A DNA stretch of 64,000 nt from the NCBI GenBank assembly GCA_021432635.1, contig MU270028.1, positions 916,420 through 980,419 of the forward strand. Reading direction: 5' to 3'. Below, one piece after another: positions 1,394 to 51,304 of this stretch; the stretch's first letter is position 1, and each line of letters opens with the position of its first letter. Under the pieces are notes generated by a model. That model saw only the letters and a program-made list of their open reading frames with translations, was not told where the DNA came from and did not search any database. The stretch comes from Thozetella sp. PMI_491. Its lineage: Eukaryota > Ascomycota > Sordariomycetes > Chaetosphaeriales > Chaetosphaeriaceae. The translations under genes were made by a program, and so were the position numbers.

Positions 1394-4300
1394 TCATTGT
1401 AACGAAGCCCGCCTAAAACGTAAAGGCTGTGTAGTGTTCGAAGAAAGGGTGCCATTCTGGCGAGCAAGCGGGTTCGGTGTTTCGGAGGCGGTCGTCAGAG
1501 CCGAAACATTGTGGAACGTAACGCCGTCCTTGGTCACAAGCGGGCCGTCCCACGAGAAGCCTGCGGGTGTCTCATCACGCACTGTGCCGTTAGCGAAGAT
1601 GACGCCGGTCCAGGGCTCGAAAGCTAGCTTCGCGGGCTCGGTCTCGGTGCTTGAGATGGAGAAAAGAGCTTTGGCGTTCTTCGTCACAGGAGGATACAGC
1701 GGCGGCCGCTTCGGGTTGATGTTGCAGTTCTCGCTGAGGGTGAACAAATTCAGCCCGATGGAAACTGCGTACATCTCGGCGCTGAGGTGGTCGAAAGCGT
1801 TATCATTCATTGTCACCTCACCAATGTAGTCGACCATTAGCACGTTGGGGAAGGTCTCCGGGCTGATGTTGTTGACGCCAGCCCAGTATAGAGTGGGGTT
1901 TGTTGGGATGACGGCGATGGCTTGGAGGCCGAACCCTTGAATATCAAGGGGGGCGGCACTCGGCAGCCACTGGTTGATGAAGATCTGGTCATCGTTGCTG
2001 CGTCCGCCACCTCCGGGCCTGTTAACCGTCTTCCAATCGGATATTTCCTTGCTCGCCATCGAGTCGGTGAAGCCCTGCTGCGACCAGTCGTCCCAGAAGC
2101 GGATGTGACTGACCGAGTAGATGCCGTCGTTTACAGACTCAATCGACTTTTCTATCTGCCCGTCTAGGATGACGATCACGCAGCCGCCACCGCCGTTCCC
2201 ACCGAGGAAGTTGCCGATAGGCTGCTCGTGAAACTGCTTGCTTGTATCCCAGTTCGTGCAGCGGTTGTGCAGACCTCTGAGGTGAGAGATAAAGTCGCCC
2301 AGGATGCCGCTGTTGATATCGCTTCCCCACCGAATGGGCCCGAGGCTCGGCACTTTTCGGAAACCTACGAGATACTTCATCCTCAGGAATATCAGCTCGC
2401 CGGGGTTCTCGGCCGTGAAATGGTTTATCTCGCTGATGATGTCGTCGAGCGACTCCCCGGTGTTTCCGAGGACTACCTCGGCTAGCTCGTCACTCACATG
2501 GGCAGCCCAGAACTCGTAGCTACCCTCGTTGGGCGTGGTCTGGTGAATGCTGGCAATGCGCAGGTCAAACCAGCGCGCGCCGCACCGAAGCTGATCGTAC
2601 ATGTTCAAGTTCTGCGTCTGCGTGTTGACCGACGAGCCACCAGATAAGATCTTGCCACTGATGTAGCTCATGCCGGAGTCATGGGTGCCCGGAAAGATGA
2701 CGTGGCGAACGTCACGGTCTTTGATGACGTCCTTGATGCGGTGCATCCAGTTGCCCGGCCCGTGGTTCAGCGACGTGACGAACCCATACTCTTCACTTCC
2801 CGTGATGACGAGGGTCACGCCGCCGTGCATCCAAGGGTTGCTGTATTCGCGTGATCCTAACCCCATTCCTCCCAGGTCGAAAACTGTTCGCATGGGATAG
2901 TCATCTGGGATGTGGGTGGTAGCCTTCACGACGAACTCCTTGTGCTCGTTGGTGCCCTCAAGCACGTAATAGAAGTGGCCGTTGGAGTCGACCGGATTGC
3001 CACCGCCATAGTGCACCATGTTCGGGCGACTCTTCCCGGGGGGGATGTCGCCGAAGTCATAGGGGTCAATCTGATAAGGTTTCTCTCGGACCTCTAACTT
3101 GAAGTTGTAGGGCGTCAGGTTGACAATAGTGACCCAGTAGGTGCGGTCAACATCAGGATAGGTCGGGTCCATCCAGATCCAGTTCATAAACTCTCCATCG
3201 GGCATCGTGTTAGAGCTATACTTGCGCTGTTTGATATCGCAAACATCATCCGGGTCCGAGCTCGGCGGGTCAGGGTCGGTGAGAGCGGGCTGGTAAGTCA
3301 TCAGATCCACTGCCCAGTCTGTAGTTCCGCCAAAGTTTAGACCTGATACCCAGCTGGCTCTGCTTTTCTTGGTATCCGCGCTCATGTAGGCCGCCCAGTC
3401 TACGGAACTCGAAGTACCATAGACAAGGATGTCTGACTCGGAATCCTGATCGAAGAAATACTTGACATTGGGATAGCTCGACTTGCCGGCCTTGATCTCT
3501 TCGAGCTCGGCATTGGAGATGTAGCCCGATGTTCCCGTACACTTGCCCTGGTATGCTTCAGAGTGGTTCTTGTCGCCCTGGTATTTGCACATGACGCCGA
3601 GGCAGCCGGGGTCCGACAGACGGAAGCTGCGCGCGTAGCTCGAGACACCAATGACGATCTTGTTAGCGGTAACGCCGGCCTTCGTGATCATGACCATCGC
3701 GTTCTTGGTCTCGGTCTTGTTGATGTGCGAGCGCACGCAGTTACCTGTCTCGCAGCCCTCCACGGACCATTTTGAATCAACGTCCCATTGCCCGTGGAAG
3801 TCATACGTCATGTAGACGAAGTAGTCCACAACAGACTGCATCAAATTGACTGGATACTGCTTCAGATACCAGTAGGAGGCCGGGAGTGCAATGGAAAGAG
3901 TCGCGCCAGAGGGCAGCTGGTTCTTGACGACGGTCAAGAACTTCATGTAGTTCAGCCCTTCTGCTGTGGACCCTGCTGGAATGCCAGGGATGTCCGGGGC
4001 GCCTGGATACTCCCAGTCAAAGTCGAGGCCGTCCAGACCATTGTCCTTCATGAAATTGACCGCGTTGGCCGCAACAGTGTTGCGGTTAGCCGACGTGGTC
4101 GCATCTCTGAACCGCTGGAAGGTGGCTGGGTCGGTGGAAAAGGTCCAGCCGCCAAAAGAAAGGACCTTCTTGACGTTCTTAAGGTTCTTGAAGGCCTCAA
4201 ACTGCTTCTTCGACTCGTCTTCAATCGTCACGCTCCAGTCTGCAGCCAGAGTTGCGAATGCAAAGTGCACAGTGTTGTACTCCCCAGAGTCGATCTGCGA

Positions 4301-5836
4301 GGCGTCCATCGTCAAGCAAGGCCGCGCACCGTTCCAACCCTCGAAATAGGCAACTTTGCGGAACGTGCTCGGAGGAGACCCATTGTTGACGATGTCCATG
4401 CCGCAGTTCGAGATGCACCCGTTCGTGCCCGGCTTGGCGGTTCCGGGAGCCCCTGTGTCGGCCGGCGTTGGGGTGCAGAACTCGGCTGTCGTGCCACAGA
4501 AGCCCCAGACATCGCAGCATGAGTTGAGTGGGCAGGGGTTGAGATCCGCCCAGTTGGTGCCGTCGGTGGGCTTCTCAGTCCCGGGGACGGTTGGGCCGCA
4601 GGTGACGCCCTCTACTGAGTCCGGGAATGGGGGCGAGCCTTTGCTGAGGCAGATCTTTTGGCCCTTCTGCAAAGCGCCGCATCCGCCCCAACCCCACGTC
4701 TGCTTGTTGTAGTTCTCGATGGCAGTCTGGTCGATCCCAAACGCGTCTCCGATCGCCCAGCATCCGTCGCCCTCCTGCACCGTATATTCATAGCAAGACC
4801 CGTCCGATCCCGGCTGAGGGGTGTGGTCTGGCAAGGTCCCTGCGCTACAGCACACGTACTGCTTTGGCATCAAGGTCGAGCACAGGTCTGTCTTGGGATT
4901 ATACTTCGTAAAGTCATCGCCTGAGATGCCGCACTTGCTAGCCAATGAGGCGCAGCCGTCGCCCGATATTACCTGAATGTCCCTGCAGTCTGCCCTACGG
5001 TCGAGGTGGGGACGACGAGCTGCCAGGGTCGTGCTGTTTCCGCCGGCTGTAGAGGTGAGCAAGCCGATTTGCACGCCGATCTTGCTGGATGACGAATCCT
5101 TGTTGTCGCTGAGACACTGGTTGTTGGCCCATGTCTTCACGGTGTCCTGGATCTTGCTCAAGTCCGCGATGTCTCCGGCAACGAGTCCAATAGTCGTCGC
5201 AGTGGTCGAGTTTGCCTTGCAGACCTGAAGCACGAACTTGCCGCTTTGTGCCTCCTCGCCGAACTGATTAATGGTGGCAGCGAGCGTAGGGGTGAAAACA
5301 TCTGCACCCGCATAGAGGCCGAGGACAGCACTTCCTGATTTGGCGAATATGATAGTGGTACCGCAGGCTGCCCCATCTTCCACGTATTTTGCGAGCTCGC
5401 CGACGACTGAGGAAAGATCTGCCTGGTTGAGAGGCACAGTGTTGTCTTCTAACACGAGCTGAGCAGTGGCATTGACCCGGTTCGTCTTGGCGCCGCAGTT
5501 GTTGGCAATGGACGGTCCCCCTTGGACGTCTTTATTGACGGCTATTGCGGACCCGAAGCTTTGGCTAGCGGCACGCGAGCAAGTTTGTATGGTGATCTGG
5601 GTTGTCGGCTCCGTGAGGAGGTTTTGGACGTTGAAGCTCAGCAAAACCGGCTCATCACAACCCTTAAGATCTTCAATTTTGTGTACCTGCGGCCAGGTTG
5701 AGGGGTCGGCACCAAGCTCACTGCAAGCCTTAGGGCAACGATCGACATAGTCCCCATTTAGGCCTTCTTCAACGGCATTGACCAGCCACGGGCCAACAGA
5801 GGTGGCCAAGATGGCTACTGCCCGGTGCCACTTCAT
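1394..5836 (-). CDS. killer-toxin-like LysM/CBM18/GH18 chitinase fused to a PLC-like phosphodiesterase
   Basis: One intronless frame encodes 1480 residues. Order: signal peptide (about 1-21), cysteine-containing N-terminal domain with N-glycosylation sites (to about 280), dibasic Arg-Arg pairs at 274-275 and 280-281, LysM1 (about 284-330), LysM2 (about 348-397), CBM18 (about 413-454) and a GH18 domain (about 492-850). The catalytic motif DGLDFDWE is intact, with Glu609 as proton donor. From about 895 a second enzyme module begins: a beta-rich region (TYWVTIVNLTPY), then FPGTHDSG (His1052), a Phe-Asp-Leu-Arg motif (Asp1091, Arg1093) and His1113, as in fungal PLC-like phosphodiesterases. The first part hydrolyses chitin outside the cell. 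The PLC-like part may cleave a phosphodiester, perhaps in lipid or a GPI anchor, but its substrate is unknown. Subgroup C chitinases resemble the alpha/beta chain of the yeast killer toxin zymocin; the PLC tail is unusual. Confidence 0.9.
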   Translation of the reverse strand: MKWHRAVAILATSVGPWLVNAVEEGLNGDYVDRCPKACSELGADPSTWPQVHKIEDLKGCDEPVLLSFNVQNLLTEPTTQITIQTCSRAASQSFGSAIAVNKDVQGGPSIANNCGAKTNRVNATAQLVLEDNTVPLNQADLSSVVGELAKYVEDGAACGTTIIFAKSGSAVLGLYAGADVFTPTLAATINQFGEEAQSGKFVLQVCKANSTTATTIGLVAGDIADLSKIQDTVKTWANNQCLSDNKDSSSSKIGVQIGLLTSTAGGNSTTLAARRPHLDRRADCRDIQVISGDGCASLASKCGISGDDFTKYNPKTDLCSTLMPKQYVCCSAGTLPDHTPQPGSDGSCYEYTVQEGDGCWAIGDAFGIDQTAIENYNKQTWGWGGCGALQKGQKICLSKGSPPFPDSVEGVTCGPTVPGTEKPTDGTNWADLNPCPLNSCCDVWGFCGTTAEFCTPTPADTGAPGTAKPGTNGCISNCGMDIVNNGSPPSTFRKVAYFEGWNGARPCLTMDASQIDSGEYNTVHFAFATLAADWSVTIEDESKKQFEAFKNLKNVKKVLSFGGWTFSTDPATFQRFRDATTSANRNTVAANAVNFMKDNGLDGLDFDWEYPGAPDIPGIPAGSTAEGLNYMKFLTVVKNQLPSGATLSIALPASYWYLKQYPVNLMQSVVDYFVYMTYDFHGQWDVDSKWSVEGCETGNCVRSHINKTETKNAMVMITKAGVTANKIVIGVSSYARSFRLSDPGCLGVMCKYQGDKNHSEAYQGKCTGTSGYISNAELEEIKAGKSSYPNVKYFFDQDSESDILVYGTSSSVDWAAYMSADTKKSRASWVSGLNFGGTTDWAVDLMTYQPALTDPDPPSSDPDDVCDIKQRKYSSNTMPDGEFMNWIWMDPTYPDVDRTYWVTIVNLTPYNFKLEVREKPYQIDPYDFGDIPPGKSRPNMVHYGGGNPVDSNGHFYYVLEGTNEHKEFVVKATTHIPDDYPMRTVFDLGGMGLGSREYSNPWMHGGVTLVITGSEEYGFVTSLNHGPGNWMHRIKDVIKDRDVRHVIFPGTHDSGMSYISGKILSGGSSVNTQTQNLNMYDQLRCGARWFDLRIASIHQTTPNEGSYEFWAAHVSDELAEVVLGNTGESLDDIISEINHFTAENPGELIFLRMKYLVGFRKVPSLGPIRWGSDINSGILGDFISHLRGLHNRCTNWDTSKQFHEQPIGNFLGGNGGGGCVIVILDGQIEKSIESVNDGIYSVSHIRFWDDWSQQGFTDSMASKEISDWKTVNRPGGGGRSNDDQIFINQWLPSAAPLDIQGFGLQAIAVIPTNPTLYWAGVNNISPETFPNVLMVDYIGEVTMNDNAFDHLSAEMYAVSIGLNLFTLSENCNINPKRPPLYPPVTKNAKALFSISSTETEPAKLAFEPWTGVIFANGTVRDETPAGFSWDGPLVTKDGVTFHNVSALTTASETPNPLARQNGTLSSNTTQPLRFRRASLQ

Positions 5837-15673: not shown

Positions 15674-17314
15674 TCACAGTTCTCCGGTAAAGGTAACTGG
15701 GATTTGTGCCCCTTGCTGACGTGGAGGAACCGCGCCTCCTTCTTCCAGATTGTACTGCGCCCTAGAGACACACTCTTTATCAACCTTGCGACCATCTACT
15801 ACAAGATCGACCTCACCATCGATACCAAAGCGCATGATCCTACCGCCCTGTTTAACGGTACCGTCGTGTGGAGGCCAGCCTTTATGCTTGAGACCATTCC
15901 TGGTGTCCACCATAAAGGCGTACAGAAAGTCCTGCATGGCGTGAGCGACACGGGTTTCAAATTTAGTCGCGGGTCCGTTCAGCTCGTAGCTACCCATGAA
16001 CATTGGGATGTCACTGGCGTGATAGGCACCTAGCCACGGTAGCGGAGCCACGTTGCTGAAGTTACCGCCGTATTGGTAGCGATACGTCCTCAGGCCCAGT
16101 CCTGCACGCGCGTTCATCAAGCTAACGGCCGGGCATAAAAAGCTGGCGACTGTGGCTTGATGAACAACCTCCTGGTTTGGCCCAACAGAGAGGTCAGATG
16201 GGTACCCAAAGAAGGCTGCCTCATTCGTGGTAGTGCTGACGATGGCGGGAACGCGGGCCATGTGACCTTCGGCAGCGCGTTTCGTATAGTTGAGCCATAC
16301 AGTACGCTCATCAGGCGTGGGCCGGAATGAGAGAGGCGGTTGCATGGCGTGGTCGCTATAGTTGCCGATGAAGTTGAGGATATGGACCACGGGTAGCGTT
16401 TGCATGCACTCTAGCTCCGCCGCGGCATCACGGGGAAAATCGCATCCAAGTTTCTTTGCCACAAAGGTGAAGTTCCTATGCTCATGATCTGGCGGTTTGG
16501 TGCTACCAATCGCCGTACCGCTTTGTACGAATGCACCAGTGATTAGCGGCTCTTCTGGAAAGGCAAACAGCTGCATGTCGACTGAGATAGCGCCGGCTGA
16601 CTGGCCCCATAGTGTGATGCGGTCGCGGTCGCCGCCAAAGGCGGCAATATTGTCATATACCCATTCGAGTGCCCTACGCTGGTCCAGCAAACCCGGATTC
16701 TGATCTTCGAGGCCTGCTGCGTTGGGGAACCCCATAATGTCCAGCCGGTAGTTCGCCACAATGGCGATATGCTGCTGCGTACGCTCTACCCAGCCGGCTG
16801 GCAGCTGGTATGGCACGTTGAGGCCGCCGATCTCAAAGGCCCCTCCGGGGATAAACAAAATGACAGGTAACTTGGCATTCTCTTTTACGTGAATTGGCGC
16901 CCATACTGCCAACTTGAGGCAGTCTTCCGCAGTCGTCTGGGCAAAGTCACCTGCCAAGTAGCTTTGGCCTTCGAGTCGAATATTGAAGTCGGTTAAATTA
17001 GTGTTCCACAATGCCCGTTGCGACGATAAATACTGTGAACATGGCGGTGGGAAACTATAAGAGTAGTGATGTTTGCTGGACGGAGGTGCAGCTACGGGTG
17101 GCATCCAGCGTAGCGGGCCGGTCGGCGGTAAAGCATAAGGAATGCTGCGGAATTGGCGGGTGTTAGGAAACTTGTTGTCGATGAGACCGGTGAATACGCC
17201 TGTATTGGTGCGAATAGTAAGGTCGGCTCTATTCATGGCCTCGTTGCCAGGTACCGCCGACACAAGACCGCGGGTAAGCAACCAAGCCCCGAAAGTCAAA
17301 GGTTCGAGCTTCAT
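15674..17314 (-). CDS. secreted type-B carboxylesterase/lipase
   Basis: A single intronless frame of 546 residues from the ATG at 17314; the frame also extends two codons upstream through a TTG, which is not a fungal start. A signal peptide (about 1-21) precedes a full carboxylesterase fold. The family marker EDCLKLAVWAP is at about 131-141, the oxyanion-hole motif PGGAF at about 156-160 and the nucleophile elbow GQSAG has Ser239. The acidic residue probably lies in TTTNEAAFFG, and the catalytic His in GAYHASDIPMF. It hydrolyses carboxylic esters outside the cell; the substrate cannot be told. The length is normal for the family and no break is seen. Confidence 0.9.
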   Translation of the reverse strand: MKLEPLTFGAWLLTRGLVSAVPGNEAMNRADLTIRTNTGVFTGLIDNKFPNTRQFRSIPYALPPTGPLRWMPPVAAPPSSKHHYSYSFPPPCSQYLSSQRALWNTNLTDFNIRLEGQSYLAGDFAQTTAEDCLKLAVWAPIHVKENAKLPVILFIPGGAFEIGGLNVPYQLPAGWVERTQQHIAIVANYRLDIMGFPNAAGLEDQNPGLLDQRRALEWVYDNIAAFGGDRDRITLWGQSAGAISVDMQLFAFPEEPLITGAFVQSGTAIGSTKPPDHEHRNFTFVAKKLGCDFPRDAAAELECMQTLPVVHILNFIGNYSDHAMQPPLSFRPTPDERTVWLNYTKRAAEGHMARVPAIVSTTTNEAAFFGYPSDLSVGPNQEVVHQATVASFLCPAVSLMNARAGLGLRTYRYQYGGNFSNVAPLPWLGAYHASDIPMFMGSYELNGPATKFETRVAHAMQDFLYAFMVDTRNGLKHKGWPPHDGTVKQGGRIMRFGIDGEVDLVVDGRKVDKECVSRAQYNLEEGGAVPPRQQGAQIPVTFTGEL

Positions 17315-18956
17315 CCTCAAAGGTAGTTATCTCGGGTTATAATTTTGAAACAGAAATCAGGACCTCACCTTTTCTTTTTTTTTTTTTCGCGGAGGAAAAG
17401 GAGGGGGTTTATTTATACCCTTGGCAGGATTTGCTTTCCCATCTAAAGTCCAAATTTGGGTATATTCGCTGCTACGCCCATGTTGGCGGGATATAAGACT
17501 GTACTTTAGCAAATACACGTAAGCAGACAGCGCTAAGACATAAATTTCAGCCGAAAAGAATAACAAATCCGTGTGACCAGTGCGAGCTAGGCTACCGTTA
17601 CATCAACCTAACGAGTGCCGGTGCAATTAGACCGGCGTCGTACGGAAATCGTTTCAAACCCTTTACGCCGGTACACAGTGATCATCCACCGAACCACAAA
17701 GGCCTCCTAGGGGTGGAAGTACCTCTTTCGCGAATATACCCTCGAAATCACAGTGTTGGAGTTTCAACGGCCAAAGGGCGCATCGAGTCACTTGATCCGC
17801 TTGCGCGGCGTAGAACTTTTGTTTATCAGCCTGAGGATGAGGTTGCTCGGAAATCTGACATGTAGCAGCCTTTCACGGCTAGGCATAATAAGCTAACCGT
17901 AAGACAAGACCGACTCGGGCTAGGAAAATCAGTACTGCACTGACGTAAGCGAGTTTGTACCACACAGCTAAGTAAGGTTATTATCTCTCGTTGGGGAATT
18001 CTTACAGTTTACTTGCTTGGTTCTCGTTTTGTTTAAATATAAATAATAGTATTTTGGTTTGTTTCCACCCTAAGGTGAATGCTTTTATTCACCTCTACGA
18101 GGAAACTTGAACTATCACCAGGTTTTTCCCCATCCATTTAGCCGCGATCAGAACCCAGAAGCCCTTTGTTATACGCGCGCTTCGTTTCCTTCCATATACT
18201 GGTAGACTTTACGCCGTTTCAGTGGCCTTATTGTATCGCGCGCAGGTAACGAGTATTAGTTCCGCACTACGGCCATTGGACTAGAAGGTGTGTGTATGTG
18301 TGTGTGGTTTTCGTATGCGTGCCACGATTGCAGCTACTGTTAAATAGCGAAGCCATATAACACGGACTCGTTCTTTAATATCTCACACAAATAATAACCA
18401 AAGGAAGTAAACTAGGATATTAGTAATCGAGATATTGTGTAAGGACTGAAAATGTGTGAGAATACCGCCACCTTAGTGTCTATTGTCTGCGTATAGTGGC
18501 GGCATTTTCCAAACGCACGTAGATCGTAGTGGAAATAACGTAGAGAGGTGCCTAAGGCACCCGATGTGGGCCACATCCAAGCGTGTGAAATAACCGACAT
18601 ATCAAGAGCATCCACTTGCCTAAAACGGCGGAATTTCCATGCACACACAGGTATGTATTAGCAGTAATACATTAACTATACCGTTCCTAGTACCCCCTTA
18701 CAGATTTCATATAGGCTTTCCCCTAATAATATAAATCACCTTCTCTTAAACAGATTTCAAAATTTGCCTTTTGTATAATAAAATATCCTTAGCGAGTATA
18801 ACCTAATGCCTTCCATCTTCTTCTGGGTTGCCAAGCCAAAAAAGAATTACCCAGGCGGAAGGCAGGTGCTATCCGGGACCACCTCCATGATTACAAACAC
18901 AGCTACAGAGAACATTGTAAGCTTACAGGCGTCATCCTCAAATGAACAGTCCGCCG
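17315..18956. other. intergenic region, about 1.6 kb
   Basis: It contains the carboxylesterase promoter with a TATA-like box, a 13-base T tract (17375-17387) and a short GT-rich run near 18288-18306. No coding potential is recognised. Confidence 0.5.
17411..17417 (-). promoter_or_regulatory. TATA-like box of the carboxylesterase gene
   Basis: TATAAAT on the minus strand, about 100 bp upstream of the ATG at 17314. Confidence 0.35.
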
Positions 18957-20872
18957 TCAAGCCCCGTGGCGTCGTCTGACCTTGGAAGACGTGGAGCCCC
19001 CATTGATGCAATATGCCTCTCCTAGCAGAAGATTGCCACAGTCGTCGTGGAGATCGGGATTCCATTGCGTGAGCTGCGCCATTGTGATGCCGGCGCTCTG
19101 CTCAATATCAAAACACGTATCGCCACTCACGACCACGTGCCACTCGTAACAGCTGGTTGTCGTCCCCGGCGGTGTGGGCGCAGGTGGAGCCTGCGTTGTC
19201 GAGCTAGTCGGCCCTGAAGACGAGCCACCATTGACGCAGTATGCCTCCCCTAGCAGAAGATTGCCGCAGTCCTGGTTCAAGTTGGGATTCCATTGCACGA
19301 GTTGATCCATGGTTATCCCGTAGCTTTGCTCGATAGCGAAACAGGAATCGCCACTCACGACGACGTGCCACTGGTAGCAGCTGTGTGTTGTCCCAGGGGG
19401 GGTTGGCGCAGGTGGCGCCTCCGTCGTTGACGAGGCTGACGAGGTTGAAGAGCTGTTGCCTCCCCCAGGATTGGTTGTATTCCAGTTCTGTGTTGGTAGG
19501 ACGCAGTACCAGAAGTCAGGAATGAGGTTGAAGCAATTCTCATCGATGGCCGGATTGATCTCCTCAAACAAGGCCACGCTGATGCCTGCGGCAAGGGAGA
19601 TGCGTTGACAGGTGTCGGCGACTTGCACCTGGTAGAATCCGCCGCAATTAGGTGTTGTTTGAAATGGAGTCGGTCCAGGAGGAGCCACAGTAGCGGTTGC
19701 AAACTGCAGAGGGGCATTAGGGTTCGTTAAGTTGCTTGCGGGAGGTACGTAATCGCGCTGTGGATTCGAGATGCAGATGACGGAACTAGTTATGTTGAGA
19801 TTGGTGCAGTCGGCATTGATTGTCGGGTTATAACCCAAAAGAGTACTGAAACTCAGCCCCTGGTCCGCGGCGATTGACCAGCAGGTGTCGTTTGCCTGCA
19901 AGGTATAGAGGCTACATTGTTGGGGGAGACATAACGATTGCCCAACCGTAAGAGCTGCGCAGTCTGGGCGGAGATTATTAATAGCCCACAGTGTCCCCTG
20001 CGATACCGACTTGGCAACCGCGATCGATTCGCACGTGTCTCCTGCCTGAATTGTATACGTGTTTCCTGAAAGGCAAGTGATGTTGGTAATTACTTGGTCC
20101 GGCGGTGCGGGGAAAGTAAGATTCGAATTATTGTCCACGCCCAGGGACGAGTTAAGACCGCAGGCTGTGCGTCATATAGTCAGCGAGTGCACACAGCTAG
20201 CCACGCATAAGAGCCGCTTCATACCTACCTTTCTGAGTAGTGAACCAGTTCAGTGCCGTGTCAAGGTTATATCCAAGGAATGGCGACTTCTGCAGAATCT
20301 CAAAGTAGGATACTTGGCAAGCTGAACACATCACCGAAGTAGGCAAGTGGTCCCACTCCGTGACAGGAGGATTGATGGCTTGAAAAGCGGCGACTAGGTA
20401 ATCTAATCCGCACTAGGCGTCAGCGTGCTCTTGCAGCAAAGAAGATGGCGCTCAGGTTGCACATACCTGGGCAGTACTGGCCAGTAGTCGAGTCTTTAGT
20501 ACAGACTAGGTCGTAATAATCATGAAGCAAGTCTCCGACGAAGGTGTTCGCAAGCTGAGGGTCAATTACAGCAGAGTTCCCACAGGCACTCTTGACGCTG
20601 TTTTGATAATTGGTCAGAGCACTGCTGCACCCAGTCGAACACAGGCTGGCGGCATTACCAGTTGCGTTTGGCGAAGCGTAGACGTTCGTGAGAGCAAGGA
20701 CTTGGAGGTCGTCATCACAGTCGATGGTACTGTTTAAAGCAGCCGCGCAAGACTGAGGAATAGTAGAATCACCACCAAAGCCATTGTTTCCGGCAAAGAC
20801 TGGGAATGGAATGATGGTTGAGGTCGCTGCGTGTAGCAGGACGGCTATCGTGAGCGCCTGAAGCGTACTCAT
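18957..20872 (-). CDS. secreted protein with five LysM domains
   Basis: Three exons, 20467-20872, 20229-20393 and 18957-20164, give 592 residues with a signal peptide (about 1-18). A cysteine-rich N-terminal region of about 190 residues precedes five LysM domains at about 226-271, 275-322, 366-411, 454-500 and 530-576. The domains are separated by Ser/Thr/Pro linkers; LysM4 and LysM5, with their linkers, are near copies of one another. LysM domains bind chitin oligomers. Secreted fungal LysM proteins can shield hyphal chitin or sequester fragments, and are often encoded beside subgroup C chitinases. This gene stands head to head with the chitinase at 21696, sharing an 823-bp promoter region. 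It ends in a short basic tail (KVRRRHGA). Chitin binding is secure by family; the biological role is inferred. Confidence 0.9.
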
Positions 20873-21695: not shown

Positions 21696-24600
21696 ATGGC
21701 GTCCTTGCCACATCACCGCGGAAGTGGTGGCTATGGCTACGGGTTCTACCTTCTCTTATTCCTTGTCGCCATACTTTCTCAGCCTACGTGGTCACAATCG
21801 ACACCCCAGGATCCAGATTATACTTGTGCTGCAGATAGACCATGTGCTGTAGGCTGCTGCGGCAAATTTGGCATCTGTGGCATGGGCCCAGGTGAGACCT
21901 TCTCACCTACCCCATAGAAGTTTCCTCTCTGACACTAATGCGATCGACCACAGATTTCTGTGCGCCCGAGAACTGCGTCAACAGCTGCGACGCCAAATCT
22001 GAGTGCGATCCTGCCGGCTGGGGACCGCAGTACGCAAAGTCTGAGGGATGTCCCCTTAACGTTTGCTGCAGTAAATTCGGCTTCTGCGGTACTTCGACCG
22101 AGTTCTGCGGTAATGAAGTGATCCAGAACCCCAGCTGCCCAGGCGGCACTTCGGCCTCGAAACGCACAGTCGGCTACTACGAAAGCTGGGCAGGCGGACG
22201 GCCCTGTGATGCCGTGGAACCCGAGACTATTCACTTCGCCGCGTATACCCATATCAATTTTGCTTTTGCTTCGGTCGACCCAACAACCTTTACTGTCGTT
22301 CCTAGTGATCCCGGAGACCTTGATCTTTATTCCCGTCTCACAGCTTTGAAAGCATACGCTCCTGGATTACAAGTAAGTTGAGACATTGTTTAGAACCCGA
22401 TTTTCTACCTCTTTCCATCCGTTATTTTTCTCCGCAGGGAAGTCAAATAAACAAGCAGCCCATCGGTCTAATGTGTTTTTTATAGGTATGGCTCTCAATT
22501 GGAGGATGGACTATGTAAGCATACTTTAGCCGCATTTTGGCTTTGTCTAACCTCATCTCTTCGTGCAGGAATGATCCCGATCAGCCGACAGCAACCACGT
22601 TCTCCGACGTTGCAGGTTCTCCGGATGCTCAAGCTGCTTTCACAAACTCCCTTATTCGAATAATGTCTACTTATGGGTTTGACGGAGTTGATATCGATTG
22701 GTGAGCTCCCCCCAGCCTTATTGAACATGGCATATCTGTTTACTAAGGGGACAGGGAATATCCGGTGGCGCCCGAGAGAAGCGGTCGTCCAGAAGACTAC
22801 GCCAATTACCCCAACTGGCTCACAAATCTGCGAGGGGCATTCGCCGCTGCTGGACATAACTATGGACTCAGCATCACACTGCCTTCCTCGTTCTGGTATT
22901 TACAGAATTTCGATATCGTGAAACTTGAAAAGGTCGTTGATTGGTTTAATATGATGGGTTCGTGTTCTCTTTCCCGCTTTCCTCGTTTCGCCTCGCCTTT
23001 TATTATCATTGGTACAGTGATTTCTAAACATATCGTGAAGAGTACGATCTGCATGGTACATGGGATTCGACTGATGTATGGATCGGAGGTAAGCTTTGTG
23101 ATATTCGGACCCTGTTGTTGTCCCTGATGAGCCAACCGAGCTGATGATTCATTTTACCAGCATTTGTCAATGCGCACACCAACCTCACGGAAATTGACCA
23201 GTCCCTCAAATTGATGTGGCGTAACAATATCGACCCTTCCAAAGTTGTGATGGGACTGGGATTCTACGGACGAAGTTTCGCTCTTTCAGATCCCTCATGC
23301 ACGGCACCAGGCTGCCCTTTTAGCGGAGCAGCTCCAGCAGGTCCTTGTACCGGCTCGCCAGGCACCTTGTCGTTCGCAGAGATTGAAACCCTGATTGGAC
23401 AAGGCGCAACTGTCACCCTTGACACGGAAGCAGCAGTCAAGATTGTCACATGGGATGGCAACTGGGTTTCGTACGACGACGCGACTACGCTTCAGGCCAA
23501 GATCGACTACGCCAACGACAACTGCCTTGGTGGCACAATGGTATGGGCCGCGTCCCTAGACGACAGCGTAGGCACGGCATCCAACGCTCTTGGTCAGGCT
23601 GGTGGACTTGGAACGACCGGCGCCCCGAAAGCCAATATCCTCTTAGCTGCTGCGGGTCCGTTAACTGCCTGTGCTTGGTCATCATGCGTGAAGCCCGGCG
23701 AGACAGCATGTCCAGCTGGCCAGACAGCTGCCTACCAAACCACAGAGGGCTGTCCTGTGGATGGAAATGGTGTCCAGCTTCAAGGAACCGGTATCGCTGT
23801 CCAGACGAACTCGCAGCGCAGCTTCTGCTGCCCCTTCGATCAGGCGCCGACGTGTTCATTGCAACTTCCAGCGACCAGTAACTGTGGCGCTGCCTCCTGT
23901 GATGTTGGAACCGTCAGCATCCTGTCAATCCCAAATTGGGCAGGCTATTGCCCCACTGCCAGCGCGTCTGTCTGCTGTACAAGCCCCCAGGTCATTAGCC
24001 CCAGGGCTTTGGGTTGCCAGTGGACCGACTGTGGATCGACGAGCTGCCCGGCGGGTTTGTCCGCGCTCGTCAGTGTCCGAACTGCCCAGGACGGCACCCC
24101 GGCATGTTCCCTGAGCGCGAGAAAGACACTCTGCTGTCCGAGCCCGCTCGCCTACGATCCTAGAACCTGTTCATGGGAGGCGGATCAATCGGTCCGCCTC
24201 CTCTGCCGGACTGGATGCCCACAAGGCAAAGTCGCCGTCGCCGACGATGTCTTAGAGGCGGGTTGTGTCATAGGCTCTTCTTCGTACTGCTGCGATCCAC
24301 CGAGCAACGTGAATAGCGCCAACCAAGAGGGAATCGACGCATTTACACGTTATGTGACACAGTACATGCTGGGCGACAGGTGCAATCCGGGAGGTTCAAC
24401 AACCTCGTCGCGAAAGAAGAAGAGGGCCTCGGGCGACTTGAACGTGAGCGTCGGCGGCATGGCGTCGTTGCTGACGGTCCCAGAGTATGCTTGGGAGTTT
24501 GAACCAGGGTCCTCGCCTGATTTACAATACATTGCGCCATATCGGACGGAGTGGAATAGTCTACGCACGTTCCTCAACCCTTCGTTGCCATCTTGGGATG

Positions 24601-25598
24601 ACATGGGTGATGCCGTGCTTCGGAGGGGACCCAGTGCCACTAATGTCCAGGGCATCATCAGCGCAATGCTATGTCCGACGGTGACCACATCGACGATCGA
24701 CCCGCTTGTTTGTGATCTTACCACCTGTAGCAGTGGTCTCTGTCCCCGCGACAGGGGTCCGACCCCAGGCGACATCGCCGATGAGAATTTTGACACCACG
24801 AGAGCTACGGCTGGGCAAGATTTCACCAACCCAGACCCCCTCGACTTCCTCGGCCTTGATTGGTGGCATGCTGCCACCGCCCTCGACTGGTGGAATGGCT
24901 CGAACCACGGGGTTAGAGGCGGTACCACAGTAGCATCATCCTTTTTTGTTGATTTCGCCACGAACCCGGGTCAGAACCTCTTTACCGGTGCGGGACCGGT
25001 CTGGGGCTGTACCACTGTGGCGGTTGTTTCCGATCGCGGTGCCTGGACTGCCCATTTCTGGCAGGGATTTTTTAACAACGCACCCACTAGTGATGGATTC
25101 TTCTTAGACGTCTTGTCGTTCATTGACCTCGGCGACTTCATCGAATACGACGGGTTGAACGCGCTGTCCGCGCCTAACGGGCCCTTCGATCCCGACACTG
25201 CCCAGTTTGTCCAGGTCATCATCATGACTCCGGAAGCCTTTACCCTGCAGCAGGCGACGCCATGGACAAGGCCGCAACTGGTTCCCGGCACAGGTCCATT
25301 ATACCCTAACCATATCCCAGCTATAGAGAACCAGTTGCGAGCCAGTCTCAGGAACCAGAACGTCCCTATTTCCACTTATAACTACGCTAGCGACCAGGCA
25401 ATCTGGGTGTGGAATCCTGTACTTTCAAGTCCTACAAATGTCCACTGGCCTTGGGGGCTTGACAGGGAAATCCACTTCCTAGATGAGCCTTGGACAGGCA
25501 TGATGACAGTCCAGCGTCGCGCAACTAATGTCGCTGGCTTGGCTCCCGCAGTCCGGGTTTGGGTTGAGGATGTCGTAGTCTTTACCCATTCCTGGTAG
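21696..25598 (+). CDS. CBM18/GH18 chitinase with long cysteine-rich and unknown C-terminal region
   Basis: Seven exons: 21696-21891, 21954-22372, 22486-22514, 22569-22700, 22755-22957, 23041-23088 and 23161-25598, giving 1154 residues in one frame. A signal anchor or peptide (about 17-33) is followed by cysteine-rich chitin-binding segments (CCGKFGICG; CCSKFGFCGTSTEFC) and a GH18 domain. The catalytic motif DGVDIDWE (253-260) is intact, with Glu260; an intron splits it just before the Glu. No LysM is present, unlike the other two chitinases here. After the GH18 domain come about four cysteine-rich segments of related layout, a basic KKKRAS site and a C-terminal region of about 390 residues, rich in Trp and Asp, that I do not recognise. 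The protein is an extracellular chitinase of the killer-toxin-like group. The exon 5/6 junction gives Met-Glu-Tyr-Asp where many relatives have Met-Thr-Tyr-Asp, so that splice is the least certain. Confidence 0.85.
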
Positions 25599-41133: not shown

Positions 41134-42744
41134 TTAAAGTGCGACTTGAGCTGGGTAGTCTTCTTGAAGTTGATATTTAGGCACCTTTTCCCCGGCCCGC
41201 CACCGGTATTTGCTGCCCGGGTGGTCCGGCGGCAAACTGCTCGAGCCGATGAACACCTCTCTGGCCGTGGCACCTTCTTTTTCTGGGTTTGCCCGGAATA
41301 GACCCCGACGCTGCAGCTCGGGGAGCAAATGCTCGATGATATCCTCGAAAGTACCAGGGTTGACAATGTGGGCTTCAAGCCGAAAATCGCAATCATTAGC
41401 GCAAAGGAATCGAATGTAGGGTATGAAGTGCGACTCACCAATGTTGAAGCCGTCAACACCAGAGAGGTCAGTCCATCGTTCTAACTCGTCGGCGACAGTA
41501 GTAGGACCGCCAACGATCTTGGGCTGTAGGCCGCCGACAGTTATATACTTAATAAGCCTGCGTTTCGTCCAAGGTAGATTGTCAGTTCCCGGGACAATAG
41601 GGGACCAGCGCCTTAATAGTGGGCGTAGCTTCTCAGAATCGTTGAAGTTGAAATCTTCATCGTCTCCATAGCTAGATATGTCGATCCCGGTCCACCCCCC
41701 GAAGAGAGCTAGAGCCCCTTCGGCGTCCGCGTATCGCACATACTCGTCTCGCTTCGCTACCGCCTCGTCGTCGGTGGCCGCAACGACTATCGTAATTCCT
41801 AAGAGAATCTTGATGTGGTCTGGATTCCGACCTTCTCGGTGTGCCATGGCCCGGATATTCTCCACGGTCTTGCGCACCACCTCAGGTGTCTGTCCACCAA
41901 TAAAAATTGCTTCGCCATGCTTCCCGCCGAAGCCATTGCCCGCCTGGGAAATCCCAGCCTGAAACAGGAACGGCGTTCGCTGCGGAGATGGTTCGCAGAT
42001 ATGAGGGCCTGGCACCTCAAAATATTTGCCTTTATGATAGATCGGGCGGACGGCATCGCTAGCGATATATGTACCGGTCTCTCGGTCCGCCACGACCGCG
42101 TCGTCTCGGAAGCTCCCCTTCCACAGCTTGTAGAGCACCTCCAAGTACTCGTGGGCGATTTCATACCGCTGGTCATGGGGGATCTGCTCCTTGAGACCGT
42201 GGTTGCGTGCGGCGCTGTCCAGAGAGCTGGTGACGATGTTCCAAGCAAAACGGCCCTCGGTGAGCTGGTCGAGCGTGGACAGCCTGCGGGCAAGCGCATA
42301 CGGCTTGTCGTAGGTGAGGCTGGCCGTCACGCCGAAGATCAAGTTCTTCGTGGCTGCTGCCATCGACGGAACTAGGTATAGAGGGTCGCTGACTGGGTAC
42401 TGTGACCCGGACGACAACACGGGGACGGTGTTCGCCGGCCCTTTGTATACGTCATAAGGGCCAAGGACGTCGGCGATAAACATGGCATGGAACCCTCCCT
42501 TATCGAGGAGCTGCGCCAAATCGGTCCAGAATGAGAGCTTTTTGTATTGGTCCGTCTTGTTCTTTGGGTGTCGCCACAACCCCGGGGCCAAGTGGCAAGG
42601 TGTGTTCATAACGAAGGCATTGAGAATGAGCTGCTTCTTTTCCTTCTCTTGTCCTGCCACGGATGGCTTCGTGCCGCTGTTTAACTTCCTCCTTTTGATG
42701 CCAGCTTGAACGCCATTGGCCGTGGTGGCCGGCTCATCTGCCAT
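41134..42744 (-). CDS. FMN-dependent monooxygenase (NtaA/SnaA/DszA family)
   Basis: The frame is open without a stop, but relatives indicate one intron at 41373-41438 (GTGAGT...GAAG, 66 bp); exons 41439-42744 and 41134-41372 give 514 residues. With the intron removed, DGFNI joins directly to AHIVNPGTF, as in the family. The start MADEP is at 42744; the open frame upstream uses a TTG. Markers are LNAFVMNTPCHLAPGLWRHP, the region LTEGRFAWNIVTS and FQAGISQAGNGFG. These enzymes are flavin-diffusible monooxygenases that need reduced FMN from a partner reductase, and oxidise chelators, sulfonates or similar small compounds. No reductase is seen nearby. Confidence 0.88.
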   Translation of the reverse strand: MADEPATTANGVQAGIKRRKLNSGTKPSVAGQEKEKKQLILNAFVMNTPCHLAPGLWRHPKNKTDQYKKLSFWTDLAQLLDKGGFHAMFIADVLGPYDVYKGPANTVPVLSSGSQYPVSDPLYLVPSMAAATKNLIFGVTASLTYDKPYALARRLSTLDQLTEGRFAWNIVTSSLDSAARNHGLKEQIPHDQRYEIAHEYLEVLYKLWKGSFRDDAVVADRETGTYIASDAVRPIYHKGKYFEVPGPHICEPSPQRTPFLFQAGISQAGNGFGGKHGEAIFIGGQTPEVVRKTVENIRAMAHREGRNPDHIKILLGITIVVAATDDEAVAKRDEYVRYADAEGALALFGGWTGIDISSYGDDEDFNFNDSEKLRPLLRRWSPIVPGTDNLPWTKRRLIKYITVGGLQPKIVGGPTTVADELERWTDLSGVDGFNIGESHFIPYIRFLCANDCDFRLEAHIVNPGTFEDIIEHLLPELQRRGLFRANPEKEGATAREVFIGSSSLPPDHPGSKYRWRAGEKVPKYQLQEDYPAQVAL

Positions 42745-43382
42745 TGTCTTCCGGATTAGCAAAACGGACTGATAATAGCTAATATATAGTCTACCTAACG
42801 TCCGACCAGTACTGAATAGCCATGAAGTGGACGGCTACCAGGAACATTTATCATTGTGCGGCTGCCGGATATGCCCCCACTTTCAGTCGATACAAGGTGC
42901 TCTGGTGTCATCGACGCGCTAAGCACGCCATCTCTCTTCCGGTCACTGACTCCTATCATCCAGCCTTTTCGCTATGCAATTCTAGATATATTCTATTGCC
43001 TTTTGAGCCGATCGGATCCCGCGTTGCCTAGGTATCATCCCCCGGTCCCACCCTTGGCGGAACTCGTCGTACAGTCCCCTGGCACGCAATGCAACCCGGC
43101 CTGACTGACATCCGCTCCTGTAAAGATAACCTAAATGTGGGCCCTGAAAGTGGCCAAGAATGCCGGTATATGCCCTAAAATTCGAATATTTGGACATTAA
43201 GTGGTCGATCCATAAACACGCTATAGCTCCATTGCCTGCGCAGTGCGGTAGGATGCGCAGGACCGAGAAGGGAGCGATCCCCTATTGCCGCGTGGCATTA
43301 TCTCCTGAGCCTTCGTAGTGTAGGCTTTACACTCATAGAGCTCTAAGATATCTGATAAAGAAGTTATTTTTTGGTGGATGCG
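42745..43382. other. intergenic region
   Basis: No gene recognised between the monooxygenase start and the peroxidase stop. Confidence 0.5.
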
Positions 43383-46768: not shown

Positions 46769-49700
46769 TTAATATCCTCCGTGGAGGTATCCGGGCAGCG
46801 AGCGACCATCCAAGCTGCTCATCGGCCAAGCCCCAACGGGTGCGGTAACAACGCTCCTCTTCCTGGCGTTGAGCTTGCAGAAGTTCTTCACTCTGTCGAT
46901 CTTCTGGACCTTGGTGGCCACGTTCTCACCCAGCTTGCCCACATCCTCCTCCGCCACGGCCCTCCGGAATCCGGCGGCCTTAGCGATTTTGGCGACGTCC
47001 AGGAGCGACACCGCCCCGGTGACCAGCAAGAAGATTGCGAGCGGGGCGTTGGAGGGGTCGTCAACAATGCTGTAGATGTCCAGGGCGGCGTTGCCGATCT
47101 CGCCGAGTAAGGCGGCAATGCGGGCAATGGCGGCTGCCGCACCCAGCGCGCTGGCGACCTCGCCGACCATGGGAATGAAGAACAGAATTGCGGACAAGAA
47201 GGCGAGAATGATGGCCTTGCGCTTTTCTTCCTCAATCTCGTCGGCGATATCGACGACCAAGTCCATGTTTGCGAGGGCTTCCTCCAGCATGGCCAACGGG
47301 ATCGCGAGGGTATCCACCAAGTCATCGGCGCTGCCTTCATACGTTCCACCTTTGATCTGCCCGATGATGGTGGTAAGTTGCGACGGGACATCAACCAGGT
47401 TGTCGTGCGCGGCGGTCGCTGTGTCCTTTGGATTCAGCACGTCGTCCTTGTCGTAGCCGTTTGGCACGACAATTCTAGGCCCGAGATTAGCTGTTTCGCA
47501 AATAAAAAAGCAGGTGTTCAATGTTGCGGTGCACTTACCCCATGTCCCAATGTTCCCAATGGCACGAGTCGAAGTCGTTGCAGTCCCACGCGCCGTTCAT
47601 CACGTCCGCGATCTTGAGATTGTCCCTGTCGATGCTCGTGGCGGCGTAGATGTCCGCATAGAACTGCTCCTCCCTGTCCGGACGCATCGACCACCATGTC
47701 GTATCGGTCTCCGGGTCGCCCTGGCCGACTCCGCGCTTCGAATAGTCCGGCGGACAGGGCTCAGAGTAGTTTTTGAAGATGACGTTAGGGTCCGTGAGGA
47801 TGCCGGCGCCTCCTCCGTTATCGCGTGTAGACATGAGCCGAAGGTCTCTCTTGGAGGCGCGATGCTGGCATGTAGACACAGTCGGGTGGCAGTAGCAGTC
47901 GCCCCCATCGAAGCAGTACGTGCACGCGCCGGGGAAACTGGGTGCAATTGCCTGGCATTCGTCACAACCTGTTTTGTTGTCCAGTCAGCCAAGTCTAGGT
48001 GGGTTTCAAGCCTGATTTGTTTCCTGGCACAAAACGTGGGCGAGTAGGAATCCACGTACAAAAGGTCATTTCTGTCACAATACAGTCAAAATAATCGTTT
48101 CCGTGCCCCAGCATGAAGTTCTTGACTGATTTAGACGCGCTCTTGACGACGGCATCAGCGTAGGTATTGAACTTCCCGTCGTACTTGTTCTTGATGAGGT
48201 CATCGTAGTGCGCCATGGCCACTGTCAGGTTGTTCGCCAGCACCTCCAGAACGTATCGAGCCCTACAGTCGAGAGAGATGGAAGAGTCATTGTCAATATC
48301 GTCCAACGTTGCGTAGGATCTGCTGTTGTCACACTGGATCTGGCTTTCTGGCGTCCCAACGATACCCGGCGGCTCGTCCGGATACTCCCAGTACCAGTCC
48401 CAGTCATCGTTAGAGAAGAATCCATCGTCGTCGGTATACTCTTGCAGATCTATCGCCCAGTCGATGGTTCCCGCGAAGTTGTATCCCTGCCACTGGTTCC
48501 TACGGGTTGTTTTGACGTCCTCGCTCATGTAGGCGACCCACTGGGTGTCTAAGGGAAGCCGCAGTTAGCATGGCGCTGACTAGCTTCGATATACACGCAT
48601 TTTGGAAAGGCTCACCGTTATACACTAGTATGTTTGAAGCAGAATCGCCGTCTTCGAAGACTTGCTGGCCCCATCCATACGAGATGATCTCCTCGATCTC
48701 GGCGTTCGAGATGTAACCCGCGACGTTAGTGCAGGGTCCGGGCGCGGCATCGGAATTGTCCCTGTCTCCCGTGAAGAGACAAGTCGGACCGACACAGCTA
48801 TTCTCGGCCATGTGGAATGACCGCCCATAGCTGGACTCGCCCACAAAGATCTTGTTGCTCTCCACTCCAGCCTTGGTGACTAGCATACCGTGTCAGCCAA
48901 ATGTGCCCCCAACAGTGGCGTACAAGATGCATACTCATCGACAACGCATATTCCTGCTCCGTGCGGTTGACTGAGAACGTTTTGTTAAGAATCCTAGGTC
49001 TGTCGGAGATCGTTGATAATGCGTACCATGGCTTCGGAGGCAGTTACCCGTCGGGCATCCGTACTGGGAGTATTGGTTACCCGCATCCCACTGGCCTATG
49101 AGCACGAATATTGTTAAGACTGTATTGAGCATGTCTCGAACTCAGGTAGGCCACCCACCATGCAGATCATAGGTCATGTAGACGATGTAATCTACGGTGT
49201 CGGACATGAGCTGAATGGGGAAGCCCCTCAGATACCAATAGGACGCTGGTGCAGCGATGGACAATGTCTTCCCGGCCGGCATCTTCCCTTTCAAGGTGAT
49301 CAGGAACTTCAGATAGTTTGGTCCGTCGGTCTCGAAGCCGGCCGGAGTGCCAGGAATATCTGTAGCCTGTGGTCACTGTTAGCTTTGCCGCCGCGACGGT
49401 CCATTAGCATGCCCTCTACTCACGCCCGGGTACTCCCAATCAAAATCGACGCCGTCTAGGCCTTCGTCATTGATGAACTTCACGATGTTGTCGGAAAACT
49501 TCCCCCGGTTCGCAGCGCTCATGCCCTCTGGGAGAATATCGTAGGTAGCAGGCTCCGTCGAGTATCCCCAACCGCCAAAGGACGCAATCCTCTTGGAGGT
49601 GGTGATAGCTTTGAACTCAGACCACTGGGCAAAGGTATCATTGACAACAGGCGTCCAAGTGGACGTGTCGATGGTCATGAATGCCCAGTGGAGGTGCGTA

Positions 49701-51304
49701 TAGGTACCGCTGTTACTAGCAGTTGATACCCTCATGTTCAGGCACGGGCGCTCGAAGTTCCAGGTCTCATAGTATCCGATGCGGCCGAAGCCGGCCGGTG
49801 CCGAATCGCTCTTCTTGATATCGAATCCGCAGCTGGACACACAGCCGTTCTGGCCGGTCGAGGTTCCGGGGTTTCCGGTCTTCGCCCTCTGCTCGACGCA
49901 GAAGTCCTGGTCCATACCACAGTGGCCCCAGATGTTGCAGCAGACGTTGAGGGGGCACGGGTTCAGGTCCGAAACGGTTATGTCACCACCGATTTGGCTG
50001 AAATCGGTGTCCGGAACAGTCGGGCCACATATGGCGTCGGCCTGCGGTGCCGGGTTAGGCGGCTTACCCTCGCTGAGGCAGATGTTCATGCCAAGGAGGA
50101 GCTTGTCGCAACCCGCCCAGCCCCAAGTGCCGTTCTTCCCCGTGTTGAAAGACTCAATGTCGTCCACGGTGAGACCGTTCGTTACGGCGATAGCTGCGCA
50201 GTAATCGTTGCTTTGAACTAGGTAACTCGCACACGTACCGTCGGGGTTCTTCTGGGGTCGGATGTCTGGCAGTGTGCCCGACGAGCAACACACTCTCTGG
50301 CCTGGTTGCAGCGAAGAACAAATGCTCGAGTCAGAATTGTACTTTGTAAAATCGGAGGGCGATATGCCGCACTTGCTCGCCAGCGTGGAGCACGTGTCGC
50401 CTGACACCACGGTGGTAGTGGTACAATCGCTACGTCGATGGAGGGTGCTGTTCGCCATGGTGAAGTTGCTCACTGGGCGAAGATCCACGGTGGATTCCAG
50501 GACGCGAAGGCTCTGCAGCTGGCCTTCTCTCTCTGCGTCTGATACGCATTGAGCCTCTCTCCAAGATCTTACGGATTGTTGGACACTGGCAAGATTGCCG
50601 GTAGTGTCTACCGCGATGCCGAAAACATGATCCCCGTTCCTACCATCGCCACAGAGCTGGGCCATCAGGCTTTCAGAGGCGCCTTCTGCTCCTATTTTAG
50701 ATTTGAGGCCTTCGATGGCATTCGAGATAGTAGACCTGCCAAAAGACTTTCCGACATAAATGCCGGCAACAGTGTTGTTGAAGTACGCAAACATAAGATC
50801 CGAGTTGCAAGTGTTACCATCCTCAAAGTAAGTTTGCAGGCGATTCAACACAGTGAGGACATCATCGCCCCCGGCGATTGCGGTACCGTTGCTCAAGTAG
50901 GGAACGTCCAGCTTGCTCTCTACGGCAGTGGTCTGCGTACAGGTAACCTCGCCACCCGCGGCGGCTGCGCTAGTATCGGTTACCGTACACCCACGCAGCT
51001 TGACGATAGTCTCAGGGTCATCCAGCGGGTGGTAAAGGGCGAAGTCAAGGAGAACTGTCTGGTTGCAACTTGACAGCTCCCAGAGCGCGCCGTAGGTGCT
51101 CCAAGTCTGCGGGTCACTGGTGTTGCCGGCGAGTGGGCAGGGGTTGAGCTGCTTGTAGAAAGTGCCCGGGGTGTCGATAGGAGCCGCGGAGGCTTGAAGC
51201 ACGTGGACGCGGTTTCCGTTTATGTCTTGAGCACCACGAACTTGCAGAACGAACAGAGGCCAAAGCAGCGAGCCCACGGCCCGGAGGCTAGACGAGCGCC
51301 GCAT
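46769..51304 (-). CDS. killer-toxin-like LysM/CBM18/GH18 chitinase with hydrophobic C-terminal module
   Basis: Eight exons: 49424-51304, 49159-49366, 49027-49095, 48935-48970, 48616-48879, 48060-48548, 47539-47968 and 46769-47474, giving 1360 residues. Order: signal peptide (about 1-24), N-terminal domain, Arg-Arg at 290-291, LysM1 (about 294-340), LysM2 (about 358-411), CBM18 (about 426-469), then GH18 (about 506-900). The catalytic motif DGVDFDWE (617-624) is intact, with Glu624. After the GH18 domain come a cysteine cluster, two Lys-Arg sites and a C-terminal part with strong hydrophobic, Gly/Ala-rich helices (ILAFLSAILFFIPMVGEVA; PLAIFLLVTGAVSLLDVAKI). This is the same front end as the gene at 1394, with another tail. 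The last intron uses TAG at 47475-47476, with a CTAAT branch just before it. The hydrophobic part could contact membranes; that is inference. Confidence 0.87.

Follow-up and report, generated by a model that had tools for sequence, protein, structure and literature searches.

A putative modular antifungal toxin of Thozetella: a killer-toxin-like chitinase continued in frame by a PI-PLC-like tail

In a 64,000-nucleotide stretch of the genome of Thozetella sp. PMI_491 (contig MU270028.1, positions 916,420 to 980,419; hereafter the window), we identified an open reading frame (ORF) in which a killer-toxin-like chitinase continues directly into a C-terminal tail predicted to contain a beta-sandwich and a barrel of the phosphatidylinositol-specific phospholipase C (PI-PLC) type. 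The frame runs uninterrupted on the minus strand from an ATG at 5836 to a stop at 1394 and comprises 1480 codons (Table 1). On balance, we favor the reading that its product is a single secreted protein directed against fungi and organized like a polymorphic toxin, in which wall opening, membrane docking and inositol-lipid cutting would be combined. The original prediction had described a LysM/CBM18/GH18 chitinase joined in a single frame to a PLC-like module; the open frame and the Pfam domains found in the head bear this out, the strand being given here for the first time, and the motifs it listed (DGLDFDWE, FPGTHDSG with its His, FDLR and a second His) were found at the residues claimed.

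The order of N-region, LysM, CBM18 and GH18 in the head is that of killer-toxin-like (subgroup C / C-II) GH18 chitinases. The LysM and CBM18 modules stand ahead of a GH18 domain with a DxxDxDxE motif, which assigns the protein to this subgroup, and several relatives bear the name 'killer toxin alpha/beta'. Two proteins so named (P0200 and P0202) match the head, long N-region included, at 49% over 98% and 95%, respectively, of residues 1-860. A protein search found residues 22-280 to be common to killer-toxin-like proteins, and N-regions akin to them directly precede the PLC-type tail, without a GH18 domain, in P0002, P0003, P0005 and P0064. The relative P0009 (1421 aa) matches from end to end, with 57% over the head and 45% over the tail, and such end-to-end relatives rule out a chance ORF. 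Hce2, the effector-type domain carried by another group of GH18 chitinases, is absent from the Pfam matches of the protein (E up to 1), and an Hce2 identity of the tail was ruled out on this ground.

The presence of a PLC-like barrel in the tail had been set beforehand as a test of the original prediction, and the predicted structure indeed gives a PI-PLC-type TIM barrel. Ahead of it lies a predicted beta-sandwich, putatively of the actinoporin/aegerolysin type, whose first strand begins at residue 30 of the tail (residue 899), in agreement with the beta-rich segment predicted near residue 897. As also predicted, stand-alone fungal PLC-like relatives have this beta-rich segment ahead of the barrel. 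The sandwich shares about 9-14% identity with actinoporins and aegerolysins (FraC, equinatoxin II, bryoporin, ostreolysin A, Cry34Ab1), and its fold would favor membrane binding. In actinoporins an N-terminal amphipathic helix forms the pore. The sandwich lacks this pore-forming helix: neither of the two predicted models shows a long N-terminal helix, one holding only a helix of four residues and the other none.

The barrel resembles that of the calcium-independent PI-PLC of Bacillus, Listeria and Staphylococcus (1ptd, 1aod, 3v18), and its conserved residues occupy the places of His32, His82 and Asp274 named in the titles of PDB entries for these enzymes. Counterparts of their Asp33, Asp67 and Arg69 are kept as well. 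His1052, His1113, Asp1091, Arg1093 and Asp1336 are invariant in an alignment of 20 fungal and bacterial rows, although His1113 could be out of register by one residue with the HH pair of the solved enzymes; outside this alignment, P0008 has Asn at the position of Asp1336. Judged from these residues, the tail appears to keep the catalytic set of metal-independent PI-PLC and is predicted to cleave lipids. It differs from the bacterial enzymes in its low identity (about 16-19%), in the added sandwich and chitinase head, and in giving no PI-PLC-X score. A search of the tail against PLC-like families, proposed with the original prediction, came back empty: no Pfam family was matched at E up to 10, and NCBIfam returned just one row at chance level. 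Only two of 82 relatives match Pfam PI-PLC-X (PF00388), the best at 0.036, and membership of that family was rejected as below scoring. We call the tail PI-PLC-like because it gives no score with the Pfam PI-PLC-X model; it would be a related family outside that model.

Bacterial relatives were surveyed as well (80 of 83 loci kept, 24 read, with L046 yielding only a 25-residue scrap, 18 aligned and then 14). The same combination of sandwich and PLC barrel is present in L001, L002, L003, L010 and L030 (about 445 aa or more). Inspection by eye showed no signal peptide in L001, L002 or L010, and F5/8 type C was matched weakly by L030 (26.2 bits, under the cut-off of 28.2).

The distribution of the tail was analyzed in 286 fetched proteins. 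The tail search, in which scoring was confined to the 7992 candidates with the most words in common, listed 61 of 61 proteins; a further protein search contributed the best 120 of 210 matches and the head search the best 120 of 1161. With BLASTP at E 1e-5 as threshold, 177 of the 286 bear the tail, including the window's own database protein P0062 as well as P0177, in which only 67 tail residues match. The original prediction held that fungal PLC-like proteins normally stand alone, and this is true of 109 of the 177, which have fewer than 130 residues ahead of the tail (in 84 the start is signal-like), but not of the remaining 68, which have at least 130 residues there. Grouped by sequence, the fronts of these 68 fall into four clusters, whose representatives were checked: PF12708 type (27), killer-toxin/GH18 type (21), GH71 (10), and SGNH or FG-GAP (10). 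Solved beta-1,3-glucanases are matched by the PF12708 head of P0034 (5m5z, 9.7e-157), solved alpha-1,3-glucanases by the GH71 head of P0007 (8yfh, 1.5e-45) and a lipolytic enzyme by the SGNH head of P0018 (2vpt, 3.1e-13). Given the matches of the GH18, GH71 and PF12708-type heads, the tail follows, as judged by homology, enzymes that act on chitin, alpha-1,3-glucan and beta-1,3-glucan. Since 68 of the 177 tail bearers carry heads, in four classes, a one-off fusion is ruled out and the Thozetella protein is, by these sequence comparisons, one member of a recurrent modular family. The original prediction is thus supported in that a PLC-type barrel is fused to a killer-toxin-like chitinase with both catalytic motifs kept, but the fusion is not unique. 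In six Fusarium proteins (P0018, P0019, P0021, P0025, P0046, P0050), the tail follows an SGNH hydrolase whose FG-GAP repeats additionally carry a TcdB middle/N-terminal label.

Trees of tails and heads were compared. A larger tail tree of 111 rows sampled 42 of the 84 stand-alone rows and left out 25 short or ambiguous rows. A more careful tree was made with 59 of the 111, after dropping 10 GH55-type rows, two of every three stand-alone rows and 14 partial or divergent rows (P0177, P0255, P0061, P0058, P0048, P0026, P0022, P0059, P0029, P0037, P0055, P0060, P0051, P0052). On this 59-tail tree the six head labels require at least 11 changes (minimum 5), and none of 200 shuffles was as low. A single clade was rejected for the tails of GH71 (p 2.7e-119), GH18 (9.8e-45) and SGNH (6.9e-7) proteins, and likewise for eight GH18 fusions including the Thozetella protein (3.3e-41). 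The tails of P0006 and P0013, both behind GH18, nest in a 100/100 group of SGNH, GH71 and GH18 tails. A single origin of each head-tail pairing was thus rejected for GH71, GH18 and SGNH, the GH55-type and N-region-only groups lying outside the test. In a quick head tree, which excluded the window's own split head P0176, 13 of the 14 PLC-tailed GH18 heads group with the tail-less P0179 in a single supported set of 14 rows, P0255 falling outside, and a single clade of all 14 was rejected (p 2.2e-4). Because the heads cluster while the tail tree splits the GH18 fusions, the chitinase line appears fairly coherent, with its tails replaced several times.

The complementary view, of tails on killer-toxin-like GH18 heads, was obtained from 122 head homologs, 111 from the head listing and 11 added for carrying the PLC tail, so that the counts are shares and not rates. 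At least 60 residues follow GH18 in 97 of the 122; 75 of these tails are of the PF26794 class, 13 are PLC-like (14 with the Thozetella protein), four form a third class, two have an HExxH motif and three are singles. The other 25 are tail-less, the split model P0176 among them. The Thozetella tail clusters with the PLC class and not with the PF26794 class, the commonest in the group; PF26794 is used here as a precomputed label, and P0181, although so labeled, did not match it in a Pfam scan. Tail clusters and trees together show a putative toxin module that recombines among different carriers, as in polymorphic toxins. The HExxH tails, peptidase-like by eye, are on the killer-toxin-like GH18 heads P0267 and P0278 (Metarhizium, Lecanicillium) and may represent a candidate peptidase warhead.

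Two observations weigh against one protein assembled by such exchange. A single clade of the Thozetella tail with those of P0008, P0009, P0011 and P0014 was not rejected (p 0.335), and the database divides the ORF into two models, P0176 (835 aa, Thozetella, the top match to the head at 99% identity) and P0062 (592 aa), which is exactly residues 889-1480. The locus could accordingly hold two adjacent genes, one for a chitinase that ends past a small intron and one for an independent PLC-like protein whose first residue is Met889, and a 50-nt GT..AG stretch is indeed present where that intron would lie. P0176 ends in LGPG after Ala842, as would be expected if these 50 nt (3310-3261) were removed and reading passed into a frame with an immediate stop. 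The intron model nevertheless looks weak. P0176 also skips 33 nt in frame (residues 128-138; window 5423-5455, minus strand), which is very short for an intron; relatives of the locus may carry the same mis-annotation. P0062 starts downstream of a C-x6-Y lead that is present in 133 of the 160 tail proteins with enough sequence, and it lacks the signal-like start seen in 84 stand-alone relatives. The PDDVC in the linker also precedes the tail of P0001, which has a GH71 head. Third-position GC is level across the junction (0.72 in GH18, 0.70 in the linker, 0.72 in the sandwich), and annotated proteins with head and tail fused in this order are known from Emmonsiellopsis, Helicocarpus, two Pseudogymnoascus, Tolypocladium and Verticillium. 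Because of the missed lead, the even GC, the annotated fusions and the weak introns, we attribute the split to an error in the gene models and consider two adjacent genes improbable; the whole ORF would then be read from a single transcript.

For a fused protein, the favored antifungal role has to be weighed against three others. Remodeling of the fungus's own wall, with the chitinase loosening chitin and the PLC freeing GPI (glycosylphosphatidylinositol)-anchored wall proteins of the same cell, would suit a PI-PLC-type barrel that could cut GPI anchors, and GH18, GH55 and GH71 enzymes also serve on own walls; we regard it as unlikely, as the shuffled architecture and the discordant head and tail trees are unlike a housekeeping role and the head falls in the killer-toxin-like group. 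Nutrition on dead hyphae or arthropod remains, in which chitin and phospholipid are digested jointly, would yield carbon and phosphate to a genus associated with plant litter and roots. Scavenging needs no covalently attached lipid-cutting tail with a membrane-binding-type sandwich, however, and the same heads bear quite different tails, such as the PF26794 and HExxH ones, which leaves little room for it. An insect or nematode target, the sandwich working like the insecticidal Cry34Ab1, is very improbable, as the heads that carry the tail include alpha-1,3-glucanase and beta-1,3-glucanase, whose polymers are fungal and not arthropod.

As an antifungal protein, the product would be secreted and anchored on chitin by its LysM and CBM18 modules while GH18 opens the rival's wall. 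The sandwich would then dock at the plasma membrane, and the metal-independent barrel would cut the head groups off inositol phospholipids, with His1052 and His1113 as acid-base catalysts. The substrate would probably be phosphatidylinositol, inositol-phosphoryl-ceramide (IPC) sphingolipids or GPI anchors. Fungal sphingolipids bear inositol phosphate and animal ones do not, which would make IPC-class lipids an attractive target. The warhead would be a module traded between heads, three of them from families attacking the main fungal wall polymers. Head and warhead probably stay joined, since dibasic sites occur between the N-region and the LysM part (RR 274/280, a possible Kex2-type cleavage site) and none was found between GH18 and the sandwich; P0008, P0009, P0011 and P0014 have no dibasic pair at the place of RR 274/280. 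Loss of chiC2 in Clonostachys rosea or chiC2-2 in A. nidulans reduced the inhibiting activity of filtrates, according to the accessible text of PMC5999205, and by analogy the Thozetella protein may contribute to killing.

The killer-toxin-like chitinases and their wall-opening hypothesis are already in print (accessible parts of PMC8715425 and PMC4392113), as are GH18 chitinases with an Hce2 tail (class III Hce2 effectors; PMC8042737 and PMC3689799, as excerpted), which share the subgroup C GH18 and an extra domain with the Thozetella protein; its PLC-type tail is what differs. In the second of these papers, Podospora Pa_5_1150 rises about 3-fold during incompatibility. In the zymocin of Kluyveromyces lactis the toxic part is a separate tRNase subunit (excerpt of PMC8715425), whereas the PLC-type enzyme here shares the frame of the chitinase instead of being set apart as in an alpha/beta subunit precursor. 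The exchangeable C-terminal toxin modules on different carriers are like those of bacterial polymorphic toxins; unlike these, the Thozetella protein has a signal-peptide-like start and no bacterial-type processing or secretion parts, and no immunity gene for the tail was recognized among the nine window ORFs scanned. Among the matches listed in a literature search of titles and abstract starts, with most subscription journals outside it, none described a fungal wall hydrolase with a tail of the PLC type. Killer-toxin-like chitinases had been proposed to admit separate antifungal molecules; in the Thozetella protein such a candidate is part of the same chain, and the sequence points to its type, a membrane-lipid enzyme. 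Of a wider proposal we are slightly less than half convinced: an ascomycete polymorphic-toxin system in which the sandwich and metal-independent PI-PLC are recombined onto chitin, alpha-1,3-glucan and beta-1,3-glucan enzymes, chitinase heads swap in other warheads including peptidase-like ones, IPC-class lipids are the target and LysM neighbors shield the producer. Should the module work as proposed, fungi would equip their wall-cutting enzymes with interchangeable warheads in the manner of bacterial polymorphic toxins, fungus-fungus warfare could be tested gene by gene, and inositol-lipid-directed antifungal enzymes would come into view. The family stays hidden as no Pfam model scores the tail and database gene models split the locus.

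Table 1. Coordinates of the ORF, its parts and two neighboring genes in the window.
Feature	Residues	Window position	Strand	Basis or remark
Whole ORF, killer-toxin-like chitinase with PLC-type tail	1-1480	1394..5836	minus	1480 aa
Signal-peptide-like N-terminus	about 1-21	5774..5836	minus	judged by eye from sequence
Killer-toxin-type N-region	22-280	4997..5773	minus	without Pfam family
Dibasic RR	274 and 280	4994..5017	minus	between N-region and LysM part
LysM	351-397	4646..4786	minus	Pfam 3e-8
CBM18 chitin-binding module	433-456	4469..4540	minus	Pfam 4e-7
GH18 chitinase domain	494-844	3305..4357	minus	Pfam 8.8e-43; PDB sequence matches are chitinases
GH18 catalytic motif DGLDFDWE	602-609	4010..4033	minus	motif search
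GT..AG stretch, 50 nt, apparent intron of model P0176		3261..3310	minus	inferred from end of P0176
Pro/Asp-rich linker and tail lead, with PDDVC and C-x6-Y lead	846-889	3170..3301	minus	
Beta-sandwich, putative actinoporin/aegerolysin type	897-1022	2771..3148	minus	predicted structure
PI-PLC-type TIM barrel	1026-1365	1742..2761	minus	predicted structure
FPGTHDSG, containing His1052	from 1048	His1052: 2681..2683	minus	H in 62/62 tails; catalytic by alignment
FDLR	1090-1093	2558..2569	minus	Asp1091 and Arg1093 in 62/62 tails each
His1113, second catalytic His by alignment	1113	2498..2500	minus	61/62 tails; Tyr in P0015
Asp1336, place of the barrel's late catalytic Asp	1336	1829..1831	minus	57/59 tails
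C-terminal segment from conserved FANGT motif on	FANGT 1414-1418	1397..1597	minus	model confidence <50 from residue 1453
Second killer-toxin-like LysM/CBM18/GH18 gene, several pieces, PF26794-class tail		46871..51304	minus	
ORF with four LysM stretches		18957..20138	minus	

The neighborhood of the ORF was examined within the window. No adjacent immunity protein was recognized among the nine window ORFs scanned, spliced genes not included. A second gene of the killer-toxin-like type bears a PF26794-class tail, so that the same head type occurs twice within the same 64 kb with different tails. The ORF with four LysM stretches is a possible wall-protection partner near the toxin-like genes; in C. 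rosea, where the genes of a LysM protein and a killer-toxin-like chitinase are neighbors, the LysM protein was proposed to shield the wall against the fungus's own chitinases (accessible text of PMC7176902). The ORF of a third GH18 gene (22022-25598, plus strand) extends for about 680 residues beyond GH18; this stretch comprises Cys-rich repeats and a C-terminal part without a match among the fetched proteins. The window further contains a carboxylesterase-family ORF (15674-17320, minus strand) and a luciferase-like monooxygenase ORF (41134-42762, minus strand).
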